Below are positions 59,488-63,345 of a stretch of DNA of 64,000 nucleotides, one piece after another. Position numbers and translations under genes: made by a program. Origin of the DNA: Hyunsoonleella aestuarii (GTDB taxonomy: Bacteria; Bacteroidota; Bacteroidia; Flavobacteriales; Flavobacteriaceae); assembly GCF_006148925.1 (NCBI RefSeq), contig NZ_VAWB01000001.1:648001-712000 (forward strand), written 5' to 3'. The notes beneath the pieces were generated by a model. The model worked only from the letters and a program-made list of their open reading frames with translations. It made no database searches and was not told the origin of the DNA. Position 1 is the first letter of the stretch. Every line of letters starts with the position of its first letter.

Positions 59488-61587
59488 TCAAAAGTCAAAA
59501 TACCAATTAAATAAGTCGGTTCTAATGCCAAAATTAAACCATAAAGTATCACTTTTAAACGTTGAAGCTGATGTAACATCTGGGTTAAAATTTCTAAATG
59601 TAATGTCGGTAAATATTTTAAGGTTGGATGCAGGGTTAATTAAATAACCTGCTTGTAAATTCCCATAAAAAGTATTTGTCTTAATCCCTTGCGCTACCTC
59701 TACACCGGTATCAAAAGGTCTTTCATTATAATTTCGGTATATATCACCACCATAACTAAAATTATCAGTGCCGTTATTAAAATCTAACCCGCGCGTTCCA
59801 AAAATAATTCTAGCATCTGCAAACCATCGGTTATAATGATATCTTCCTATCAACACCACTTCACTAAAATTAGCACCCCATAAATGCGCCATAGATTGGT
59901 TGTTATGCGCATAATTTAATACAATGGTATTGTGAGAATAGGTATAAGGACGCACACGATTATACTCCAATTGCAATAAAAGGTTATTTACTTTAAACGC
60001 ATTATAATATTTTACTCCTAATTGATAACCATATTTATTTTTCCAACTTTTTTCACCCCCTTTAATATCATTAAGTGAAAATTCGTCCAAAATAAATTGA
60101 CTGTAGGCATATATATTATCTTTGAATTTATATTTAGCCGAAGCTCCCAAAATAGCATTTCCTGCTCCTTGGCCTGTTTCAAATTCAATTGCTCGATAAA
60201 AAATAACTGGGTTTAAATAGTTAATATCGAAACCACGCTCGTTAGAGTTGGTCCACAAAACAGATTCAAAGAATCCTAAATTTAATCGTTTCGATACATT
60301 CCAACTTAAATAATGATTCGCCATGTACTTCGTTAAAAAGGCGCCATCTTCAGTTACCTCTGGTCTAACATCTCTAAGCCACATCCAAGTATTGGTATAT
60401 TTTATTTTCCAAAACTTCGTATTTAACTTTAAAAACGGTCTCGGACTAGACACATCACTCAAGAATAAAGAACGATAACCATCTCCAATAAAGTTTTTAC
60501 CATGCCCAAACTGAATGTTTATAAACTTTGCAGGACTATACGATAAATAAGCCTCTGCTACTGGATAATCGTAAGAATCACTTTTAAAACGTTTTGCAAT
60601 ACCGCGTCCTGGAATAATGGCCGGATCTGGCCCAAAAGCTTTTAAGCTTTCGGCATATTGATTAACATATTGTGCAAATCGACCTTGACTCTCAAAAACC
60701 GAGGTATAAAAATTAAAATTTTTACCTAGACCTCCTTGAACCAAAAAACCTCTTGTATTATTGTATGTAGAGTTGAATTCTGCTTCGGTATCTTTCCCTA
60801 CTTGTAAATCGAAAATAGGATCTATGGTGAACCAATAATCCTTTCCTTGTAATTGCACTAAATGTTCATTCCAAAGTTTTTTTCCAGCCCAAGTATTGGT
60901 TTCTCGTTTTAGCTTTTCCTTTTCAGCCTTAAAATCGTAATATTTTGATACGTCTTCATATACAAAGGGTTTAGATGCTGTATGGGTATTGGTTCCAATT
61001 AGGTTAATATTCCTATCGAATCGCGCATAATCACCATGCGTGAAAGGAATATTTAATTGACTAGAATATCTTTTATTATCAAACGGAACCAAAGTAGTAT
61101 TAACACTATCGAATTCTTGTTTTGCTTTTTGTTCTAGCTTTGAAATTTCGTTCTCCTTCACTAAATCTTGAGAAACCGCTTCCTGATTAACCAATGGTAT
61201 TTTAATTGGCATGGAATATTGCTTATACGTAGATCGTCCATTATAAGTGGCAGGTTTTACTTTTGGAAATATTGAAAATACACGTTTTGTTTCTTCTTTT
61301 AATTCGTTATAAATAGCATCCACATAAATTACCCGAAAAATACCTGCTGTATCTACTTCAAATAGCACTACAACCTCTCCTTTGTAACTTTCATCTAAAG
61401 CTTTTTGAGGCACTTTAAAGTTTTCATAGATACGCTTAAACACATTTTTATCAAAGCATTTTTGCAGTGAATCTATAGCTGTATTTTCGCAATCTGAAAA
61501 AACTGGAGGTTTTTCATTAAACGAAGAAGTTTGTGAGGAGGTTGTGTATTGAACTAAAAGTAGGAGTAGAACAATTAATCGCTTCAT
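59488..61587 (-). CDS. remB: RemB-like gliding outer-membrane protein with N-terminal TonB-type domain
   Basis: A 699-residue exported protein. After the signal peptide (VQYTTSSQ) residues ~28-135 look like a TonB C-terminal domain: PPVFSDCEN, LQKCFDKNVFKRIYENF, GEVVVLFEVDTAGIFRVIYV, FPKVKPATYNGRS. The remaining ~560 residues are a strand-rich barrel-like region (capsule-assembly/RemB type, e.g. SPAKFINIQFGHGKNFIGDGYRS). Gene order beside gcvH agrees with the flavobacterial sprA-gcvH-remB region as I recall it. RemB is needed for gliding on agar; the fused TonB-like domain is discussed as a finding. Confidence 0.72.
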   Translation of the reverse strand: MKRLIVLLLLLVQYTTSSQTSSFNEKPPVFSDCENTAIDSLQKCFDKNVFKRIYENFKVPQKALDESYKGEVVVLFEVDTAGIFRVIYVDAIYNELKEETKRVFSIFPKVKPATYNGRSTYKQYSMPIKIPLVNQEAVSQDLVKENEISKLEQKAKQEFDSVNTTLVPFDNKRYSSQLNIPFTHGDYARFDRNINLIGTNTHTASKPFVYEDVSKYYDFKAEKEKLKRETNTWAGKKLWNEHLVQLQGKDYWFTIDPIFDLQVGKDTEAEFNSTYNNTRGFLVQGGLGKNFNFYTSVFESQGRFAQYVNQYAESLKAFGPDPAIIPGRGIAKRFKSDSYDYPVAEAYLSYSPAKFINIQFGHGKNFIGDGYRSLFLSDVSSPRPFLKLNTKFWKIKYTNTWMWLRDVRPEVTEDGAFLTKYMANHYLSWNVSKRLNLGFFESVLWTNSNERGFDINYLNPVIFYRAIEFETGQGAGNAILGASAKYKFKDNIYAYSQFILDEFSLNDIKGGEKSWKNKYGYQLGVKYYNAFKVNNLLLQLEYNRVRPYTYSHNTIVLNYAHNNQSMAHLWGANFSEVVLIGRYHYNRWFADARIIFGTRGLDFNNGTDNFSYGGDIYRNYNERPFDTGVEVAQGIKTNTFYGNLQAGYLINPASNLKIFTDITFRNFNPDVTSASTFKSDTLWFNFGIRTDLFNWYFDF

Positions 61588-61647
61588 GTTATTTTGTTAG
61601 GCGTTGATTTTAAGGCGAAAGATACTATATTTTAGCAAAGTTACCAT

Positions 61648-61684
61648 TAAAAAAACCGCTATCGTTTTATTTCAATAACGGTTT
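61648..61684 (-). terminator. Terminator of the 261-residue tonB gene
   Basis: An AAACCG/CGGTTT stem with further internal pairs is followed on the minus strand by TTTTTTT (plus-strand AAAAAAA at 61648). Confidence 0.6.
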
Positions 61685-61709
61685 CTATGACTAAATAGTT
61701 TACTTAATT

Positions 61710-62495
61710 TTAATAATCAACTTGAAAAACAATGGGCAATGTATAAATTACACCTACGTTTTTATCGTGTTGCTTTCCTGGAGTCATTTTGGGTATTTTA
61801 TTGACAACACGTTCTGCCTCGTCATCTAACTTAGGATGTGGTGAACGTGATTTAATGTTTGTAACCTCTCCTGTCTTGTCAATTTCAAACTGAACGTCAA
61901 TTCTTTGCCTCCCGCTCAATCCATAGTCGCTTCCAATACTTGTATCGAATTTTCTTAAAATAAGCTTAGAAATTTTTTCAGACATACATTTTTTTCTATC
62001 ATCGTTATCCTTGTATTTTTCACAACCAGGATAAATTGGTGCATCTTGAATACTTATAAATGGCACTGGTGCATCGTCAGGAACATCAATCACTACAATA
62101 TCATCTGGATCAATTGGTGGGTTATCATCTATCACAGGATCATCAATTGTTGGTAATACAGGATTAAGCTCGGTGTCATTCGGAACAACTTCAAAATCCT
62201 TAGACTCTTTACTCTTTTTTTGTTCTATCGACTCTTCAAAAGTGGGTTTAATGGGTTTAATATTTAGAACATCAACATATTCGGGTTCAATTAATGGTGG
62301 TAACTCCATGTACTTTGGAATAGTCGTTGCAAAATTCATCTCAAATAACCCATAGATAAACAACAAACAGACAATTAAGCCGATTTGAAAATACAGGGTT
62401 GAGTTTTTTTGTAAATTCGCATCATGCTTTTGTGGCTTTTTCGCGATTTGCTCATTTTGGCGAATGAGTTCGCGAGACTTCTTAGAAGTGCTCAT
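61710..62495 (-). CDS. Energy transducer TonB (first copy)
   Basis: A 261-residue TonB. Basic cytosolic N-terminus, one anchor (TLYFQIGLIVCLLFIYGLFEM), an acidic and proline-containing linker, and a C-terminal TonB domain (~155-261) with IYPGCEKYKDNDDRKKCMSEKI and LSGRQRIDVQFEIDKTGEV ending LPIVFQVDY. The cysteine pair is typical of the Bacteroidota branch. It transfers proton-motive force to outer-membrane receptors. Confidence 0.9.
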   Translation of the reverse strand: MSTSKKSRELIRQNEQIAKKPQKHDANLQKNSTLYFQIGLIVCLLFIYGLFEMNFATTIPKYMELPPLIEPEYVDVLNIKPIKPTFEESIEQKKSKESKDFEVVPNDTELNPVLPTIDDPVIDDNPPIDPDDIVVIDVPDDAPVPFISIQDAPIYPGCEKYKDNDDRKKCMSEKISKLILRKFDTSIGSDYGLSGRQRIDVQFEIDKTGEVTNIKSRSPHPKLDDEAERVVNKIPKMTPGKQHDKNVGVIYTLPIVFQVDY

Positions 62496-62546
62496 AATAA
62501 TTATAGTTTAAATGTTAATATTTTGATAAAATCACAATAAGCATAC

Positions 62547-62584
62547 CAAAAAGAAATCCCGTTACAAATATTGTAACGGGATTT
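62547..62584 (-). terminator. Terminator of the 240-residue tonB gene
   Basis: A 13-bp stem (arm AAATCCCGTTACA) with a 5-base loop; the minus strand continues CTTTTTGG. Confidence 0.78.
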
Positions 62585-62622
62585 TAAATTATTAGAGTTC
62601 TCCTTATTAAAAAGGTTACTGC

Positions 62623-63345
62623 TTAATCTTGTACTTGGAAAATAATAGGTAATGAATATGGCACAGTTACTGCTTTACCACGTTGCTTTCCTGGTTTCAT
62701 TTTTGGCAACAAGTTAATTACTCTAGCTGCTTCTTTTTCCAGTCCAGGGTGTGGTGCTCTAGCACGAACGCCTGTTATATCTCCATTTTTATTAATCTTA
62801 AAGATTACGTTTATACGCTGTCTTCCTGATAATCCTAAATCACTTGCTAGTTCTGTATTAAATTTTTTATTAACAAACTTCGAAATCTTTTCAGACATAC
62901 AAGCTTTTTTTGCATTGTTACCACTTTTATTTTCACATCCTGGGAAAATTGGTACATTTTCAATTACTGCGAAAGGAACTTCTATATCTTCCTCTACTTC
63001 TTCTACTTCTACTTCTTCAACCTCAACAATTTCTTCTTCTTGATCAGTCTCAGTCGATTCAATTACGGTTTCTTCTACTTCTTCTTCATCTTCTACAATC
63101 TCAATAACTTCTGGAGCTGCAGGTGGAGGCGGAGGAGGCGGAGGTGTTTGAATTTGTTCTGTGATTGGAATTTCTTCATCATCTAATTCATCTAAATTCA
63201 ACTGTCCAATATCTATATTTGACTTATCATAAGTTTTGTAATTGATCGCATAATTTGTTAAAAACAACATTAAAGCTAAACCAATTGCGAAATAGAGTGA
63301 ACTATTACGTCCAACATTAGCTTGAGAATTTTTCTTCGGTTCCAT
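62623..63345 (-). CDS. Energy transducer TonB (second copy, polyproline/acidic linker)
   Basis: A 240-residue TonB. Anchor at ~14-32, a run of eight prolines (~66-73), then a long stretch of Glu and Val (EEVEETVIESTETDQEEE and VEVEEVEVEEVEE) and the C-terminal domain (~135-240) with PIFPGCENKSGNNAKKACMSEKI and LSGRQRINVIFKINKNGDI. The linker differs completely from the first copy, whereas the C-terminal domains align closely, so the pair likely arose by duplication. Confidence 0.92.
   Translation of the reverse strand: MEPKKNSQANVGRNSSLYFAIGLALMLFLTNYAINYKTYDKSNIDIGQLNLDELDDEEIPITEQIQTPPPPPPPPAAPEVIEIVEDEEEVEETVIESTETDQEEEIVEVEEVEVEEVEEDIEVPFAVIENVPIFPGCENKSGNNAKKACMSEKISKFVNKKFNTELASDLGLSGRQRINVIFKINKNGDITGVRARAPHPGLEKEAARVINLLPKMKPGKQRGKAVTVPYSLPIIFQVQD

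Follow-up and report, generated by a model that had tools for sequence, protein, structure and literature searches.

A TonB C-terminal domain ahead of a putatively Wzi-like outer-membrane barrel in RemB of Flavobacteriaceae

In the flavobacterium Hyunsoonleella aestuarii, we analysed a stretch of 64,000 nucleotides (contig NZ_VAWB01000001.1, positions 648,001 to 712,000; hereafter "the window", in whose coordinates all features are given) that carries the gene for the outer-membrane protein RemB beside two tonB genes. All three lie on the minus strand, transcribed in the order tonB_far, tonB_near, remB, and each is an open reading frame at the position assigned to it in the initial annotation. 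The second tonB gene, tonB_far (62623..63345), encodes 240 residues with a TonB_C domain at 62626..62958 (hmmscan E 4.6e-9), while tonB_near (61710..62495; 261 residues), which adjoins remB, has its TonB_C domain at 61713..62045 (E 7.6e-10). Finally, remB (59488..61587) encodes 699 residues, comprising a signal peptide, a TonB_C-type domain, a linker, and a putatively Wzi-like outer-membrane barrel. The wider order is ruvA-sprA-gcvH-vanZ-tonB-tonB-remB-cyoE, with vanZ directly upstream of the tonB genes and gcvH, sprA, and ruvA beyond the window; the identity of sprA is backed by a match to TIGR04189, and the genes that we take to be gcvH and ruvA were named from their sequences. This gene order is the same in relatives. 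Because of that conserved order, and because a locus table in PMC4891872 gives sprA as Fjoh_1653 and remB as Fjoh_1657, the 699-residue protein is most probably RemB; homologues agree, and it is 89% identical to the RemB of an uncultured Algibacter, which places the window near that genus.

RemB starts with a stretch that looks by eye like a cleaved signal peptide, and ends in Phe. By sequence and structure model, residues 26-133 (61189..61512, minus strand, including Cys33 and Cys44) are a TonB C-terminal domain, lying between signal peptide and barrel as the initial annotation had proposed, though with bounds slightly different from its residues ~28-135. The Pfam profile alone gave an equivocal answer: a genome-wide search with PF03544 returned the two neighbouring tonB genes at 41.7 and 39.4 bits, a third tonB elsewhere in the genome at 57.4 bits, and the RemB N-terminus at 23.4 bits (E 2.2e-4), and hmmscan of the protein gave 18.9 bits (E 0.0021), both RemB scores falling below the curated cut-off of 24.6 bits; routine annotation therefore misses the domain. 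The same profile reached E ≤ 0.01 in 22 of 58 RemBs scanned. A hidden Markov model (HMM) built from 44 TonB domains of sprA-linked loci, with no RemB among them and including one spurious 1.8-bit piece from locus L040, was instead decisive, matching residues 26-133 of the window RemB at 43.2 bits and the N-termini of all 23 Flavobacteriaceae RemBs at 26.9-73.9 bits, against at most 3.0 bits for 600 shuffled proteins and no match in seven RemBs of other families. Sequence searches of the PDB—with the whole protein, a diverse RemB alignment, or the domain alignment—yielded no usable match; one alignment (A2) retrieved TonB entries only at E 0.63-0.72, and the best rows for another (A3) were unrelated proteins at E 0.0013 and up.

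The predicted structure points the same way. The isolated domain was modelled at a predicted local distance difference test score (pLDDT) of 91.7, and the first 13 Foldseek matches to this model in the PDB were TonB or the TonB homologue FusB (E 0.001-0.07). With VIA-align, the best match was the FoxA-bound TonB domain (Z 8.4), followed by other TonB and TolA domains mostly at Z 5-7.8; the highest rows outside these folds were DUF5043 at Z 4.3 and then 3.4. Homology and fold thus coincide, with a significant TonB-only profile match and a TonB fold in the model. The architecture of a TonB energy transducer is absent from RemB, in which the domain begins at residue 26, right after the signal-peptide-like stretch, with no spacer and no inner-membrane anchor of its own.

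At the residue level, the cysteine pair that the initial annotation saw in both RemB and TonB is invariant in the domain alignment (22/22 RemBs, 42/42 TonBs), and the motif around it occurs in all 80 named loci, 23 of which were removed by dereplication in alignment A1. RemB and TonB domains also have a common core (P28, F76, G82, L96, E99, P108, P112), so that the motif sharing noted earlier with the local TonBs extends to cysteines and core and stops short of GKQ, which is conserved in those TonBs (G in 40/42, Q in 41/42) and replaced in RemB (A in 17/22, Y in 18/22). Residues conserved specifically in RemB include E77, Y88, D90, Y93, K97, F104, N116, Q123, and P131. The domain is under purifying selection (ratio of nonsynonymous to synonymous rates, dN/dS, of 0.055 against the nearest relative), and its mean alignment entropy of 1.57 lies between that of the barrel (0.95-1.00) and that of positions 136-173 (2.46). 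The latter belong to a linker (residues 136-176; 61060..61182, minus strand), where conservation is lowest in the mature protein.

The domain had at first appeared special to this one protein, and an oddity of a single genome is rejected by its distribution. Among 60 relatives, H. aestuarii included, RemB occurs in 23 of the 37 family genomes and spans the domain in each; of the 23 genomes that belong to other families of the order, 12 have a RemB, and every one of these aligns only from query residue 171 onwards (residue 165 in another alignment). In a broader set of 199 family genomes (198 genera), RemB was present in 121 and the domain spanned in 119; in the class as a whole, 263 of 295 genomes have a RemB match, and among the matches listed all those outside the family start at residue 140 or later. 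The two exceptions within the family are a fragment (genome G209) and a 548-residue RemB lacking the domain and encoded away from sprA (genome G151, at L166:7865-9508). Given its presence in nearly all family RemBs, and listed RemBs outside the family that start after it, the simplest account is a gain of the domain close to the root of Flavobacteriaceae, in which case G151 either branched off early or lost it. Other RemBs therefore do have this N-terminus, as the initial annotation had wondered, within one family. The domain is an ordinary feature of the family, apparently undescribed in open papers: we found no description of it in open-access papers, a search that did not cover most subscription journals.

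Relationships to the neighbouring tonB genes were close but inconstant. All 22 family loci examined have tonB upstream of remB—two genes in 20 loci, one in L047 and L049—and tonB directly adjoins remB in 19; in L050, L052, and L053 other genes intervene, each time including a hexapeptide-transferase gene. In genus g146 (probably Flavobacterium, inferred from its heavy sampling), no tonB was detected between vanZ and remB in four of the five genomes, yet the RemB domain is kept (38.4-54.4 bits across the five). Two of these genomes, inspected directly, have one gene between vanZ and remB, which we take to be deoC-like; a protein in L053 similar to its product has a sub-threshold Pfam DeoC match. 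Conversely, tonB is retained in three genomes without remB (L167-L169), with gcvH or sprA on one side of it and cyoE on the other. Because RemB keeps its domain without an adjoining tonB and tonB persists without remB, the two are frequent neighbours and no fixed pair, and the three TonB_C domains in a row do not form the meaningful unit suggested at the outset. In L037, the near tonB is broken into two reading frames (L037:4221-5075), with remB and the far tonB intact.

A recent copy from a neighbouring tonB was considered as the source of the domain and rejected, since a 100/100 branch sets RemB domains apart from every correctly assigned TonB in a tree that included one misassigned row, a spurious TonB piece from L040. 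With that row left out and TonB_C pieces shorter than 95 residues also excluded, RemB domains again formed one group, weakly supported (63). Both trees omit L023 (a partial RemB) and rest on 113 columns only, which places the deeper origin of the domain beyond their reach.

Within the window, a terminator-like hairpin of 14 pairs followed by a T-run lies between the two tonB genes (62554..62584, minus strand), a weak call given two such sites in the stretch against 2.2 expected from shuffles; tonB_far may end a transcript there, and tonB_near and remB may form their own. A Bacteroidetes-type promoter pattern occurred five times in the window against 7.2 expected by chance, and none was near remB.

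Beyond the linker, residues 177-699 (59491..61059, minus strand) form the putatively Wzi-like part of RemB. An AlphaFold2 model of the whole protein (mean pLDDT 63.7) shows helices in the region of residues 150-239 and, over residues 251-689, about 18 long strands; its best structural match, for a barrel modelled at low confidence, is Wzi (2ynk; Z 20.0, root-mean-square deviation 4.2, 341 residues aligned over 177-692). Wzi is described in PMC3791409 as a capsule-binding lectin barrel plugged by periplasmic helices. This also makes it unlikely that the TonB-type domain is itself a plug, as the initial annotation had ventured, since the linker, the most variable part of the mature protein, runs between the domain and a distinct group of helices, and RemB matches Wzi, which has a helical plug of its own, only from residue 177, beyond that linker.

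Independent support for a Wzi-like barrel comes from the genes around domain-less RemBs. In 8 of 12 such genomes, a family-1 glycosyltransferase is encoded within 10 kb of remB, against 1.13 expected under uniform placement (P 1.6e-6, a value that ignores clustering of glycosyltransferase genes), and of the other four RemBs, two are on contigs that are short or that end there. At locus L059, a run of flippase, sulfotransferase, Wzy-type, epimerase, and glycosyltransferase genes comes after sprA-gcvH-tonB and leads up to remB and cyoE, the last of which follows remB in the window as well. Without its polysaccharide genes, this locus would resemble that of Flavobacteriaceae.

Taken together, we tentatively favour, at somewhat less than even odds, a reading from models and analogy in which RemB combines a Wzi-like surface-polysaccharide barrel with a TonB-type periplasmic binding domain, acting as a passive tether with no motor anchor. 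RemB would be the flavobacterial form of a Bacteroidia-wide, Wzi-kind outer-membrane barrel that binds or organises surface polysaccharide, and near the base of Flavobacteriaceae it would have acquired a TonB C-terminal-type domain between signal peptide and barrel. As the mature protein has no inner-membrane anchor, the domain would hang in the periplasm below the barrel on its flexible linker. There it would most likely act passively, in the manner of TonB and TolA domains: an edge strand would pair with a short piece of some periplasmic protein, and the barrel, with the polysaccharide it holds, would in this way be attached to a further part of the envelope. Such a tether is the simplest mechanism because TonB and TolA domains are described in PMC12204202 as binding through strand addition. 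What the data show is the domain with its fold (by sequence and model), how it is conserved and distributed, the Wzi-like model, and the association of domain-less relatives with polysaccharide genes; what we infer is the location in the periplasm, the binding of polysaccharide, the pairing of strands, the tether, and the partner. Several observations weigh against this reading: many stretches of the barrel model fall below pLDDT 50, OccD3 and AlgE (Z 17.0) follow only 3 Z below Wzi, no polysaccharide genes adjoin remB in the window, and no candidate partner emerged for the domain. Furthermore, the Wzi profile PF14052 has no match in the window RemB or its genome at E ≤ 1, none in the 12 domain-less RemBs scanned directly, and a single sub-threshold match inside a RemB among the 60 genomes (14.6 bits, G055). 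The table in PMC4891872, finally, lists remB as adhesin-like and type IX secretion as secreting RemA/RemB. That RemB is such a type IX-secreted surface adhesin nonetheless strikes us as very improbable, given a barrel model ending in Phe and no match to any NCBIfam model at E ≤ 1, hence none to a sorting-domain model of that system.

Alternatively, RemB could receive force, its TonB_C domain pairing with a motor-driven TonB C-terminus—for example, that of the TonBs encoded next door—so that the proton gradient moves or opens the barrel, perhaps in gliding or polysaccharide export. The presence of an upstream tonB in all 22 family loci examined, the place of remB in the sprA cluster, and a fold that is the working end of a force transducer make this the leading alternative, albeit an unlikely one, for the adjacency breaks down in g146 and in the three loci with intervening genes, and tonB outlives remB elsewhere. 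Moreover, sprA and gldG are both present in 11 of the 14 family genomes that lack RemB, which places RemB outside the fixed gliding gene set; coupling energy to gliding, as first proposed for this domain, would need a motor-bound partner, and the link is not supported. Ranking just below is an export pore of the AlgE/EpsX type in place of a lectin, with the TonB_C domain recruiting periplasmic export parts: AlgE entries reach Z 15.3-17.0, Wzx/Wzy-type genes lie near remB in relatives, and composite OPX/barrel translocons are described in PMC9601211. Against it, however, Wzi gives the higher score, in an alignment that starts at residue 177 and takes in the helices, and PMC9601211 places short OPX proteins with a C-terminal helix and no coupled barrel mostly in Bacteroidetes. 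We give slightly less weight again to a passive peptidoglycan anchor or structural spacer, an OmpA-like role played by a TonB fold. TonB has affinity for peptidoglycan, and stand-alone secreted and lipoprotein TonB_C proteins in relatives indicate that the fold is used without a motor, although the RemB-specific residues (E77, Y88, D90, and others) fit a specific protein partner as well. Most speculative among the bolder extensions, and improbable in our estimate, is that barrel and domain together link the polysaccharide layer of gliding flavobacteria to proton-driven TonB/ExbBD, slime or capsule attachment being actively pulled or released.

The TonB_C fold recurs in other unanchored settings among relatives. 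Small secreted proteins of ~135-290 residues consist of a single TonB_C domain or two behind a signal-peptide-like N-terminus (L151, L156-L161), and lipoprotein-like TonB_C proteins (L154:3754-4260, L155:3727-4248, L162:3669-4139, L164:2076-2588) lie near proteins with several TonB_C repeats, which are presumably of M56 type.

RemB has so far stood in gliding-gene lists as adhesin-like, without a mechanism. A Wzi-like reading makes it a testable polysaccharide anchor, in which a TonB domain would be used at the outer membrane without a motor anchor of its own, and sister families, in which this barrel occurs either with the domain or lacking it, offer a natural comparison. The domain call itself goes beyond Pfam thresholds, and the protein is a variant built of known parts.

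Compared with the TonB C-terminal domain (PF03544; structures from E. coli, P. aeruginosa, and H. pylori), the RemB domain has the same profile and alpha-beta-beta-alpha-beta fold, and the cysteine pair of the TonBs next door; it differs in standing at the N-terminus of an outer-membrane barrel, lacking membrane anchor and spacer, and having the local GKQ replaced. RemB shares a TonB_C domain lacking the usual TonB anchor with further Flavobacteriales proteins (secreted ones with one domain or a tandem, lipoproteins, and M56 fusions), whereas among the TonB_C proteins of the 20 regions viewed we noticed none resembling its barrel, and the RemB domains group by themselves, with weak support. 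For F. johnsoniae RemB, compared by locus numbers and gene order only, the numbering leaves three genes between sprA and remB, as in g146, and an N-terminal domain may be expected. Relative to Wzi, RemB lacks the PF14052 sequence match and has the extra TonB_C domain; its barrel model, of low confidence, resembles Wzi in about 18 strands with helices ahead of the first, and the likeness extends to context, in the polysaccharide genes that neighbour the domain-less relatives of RemB.

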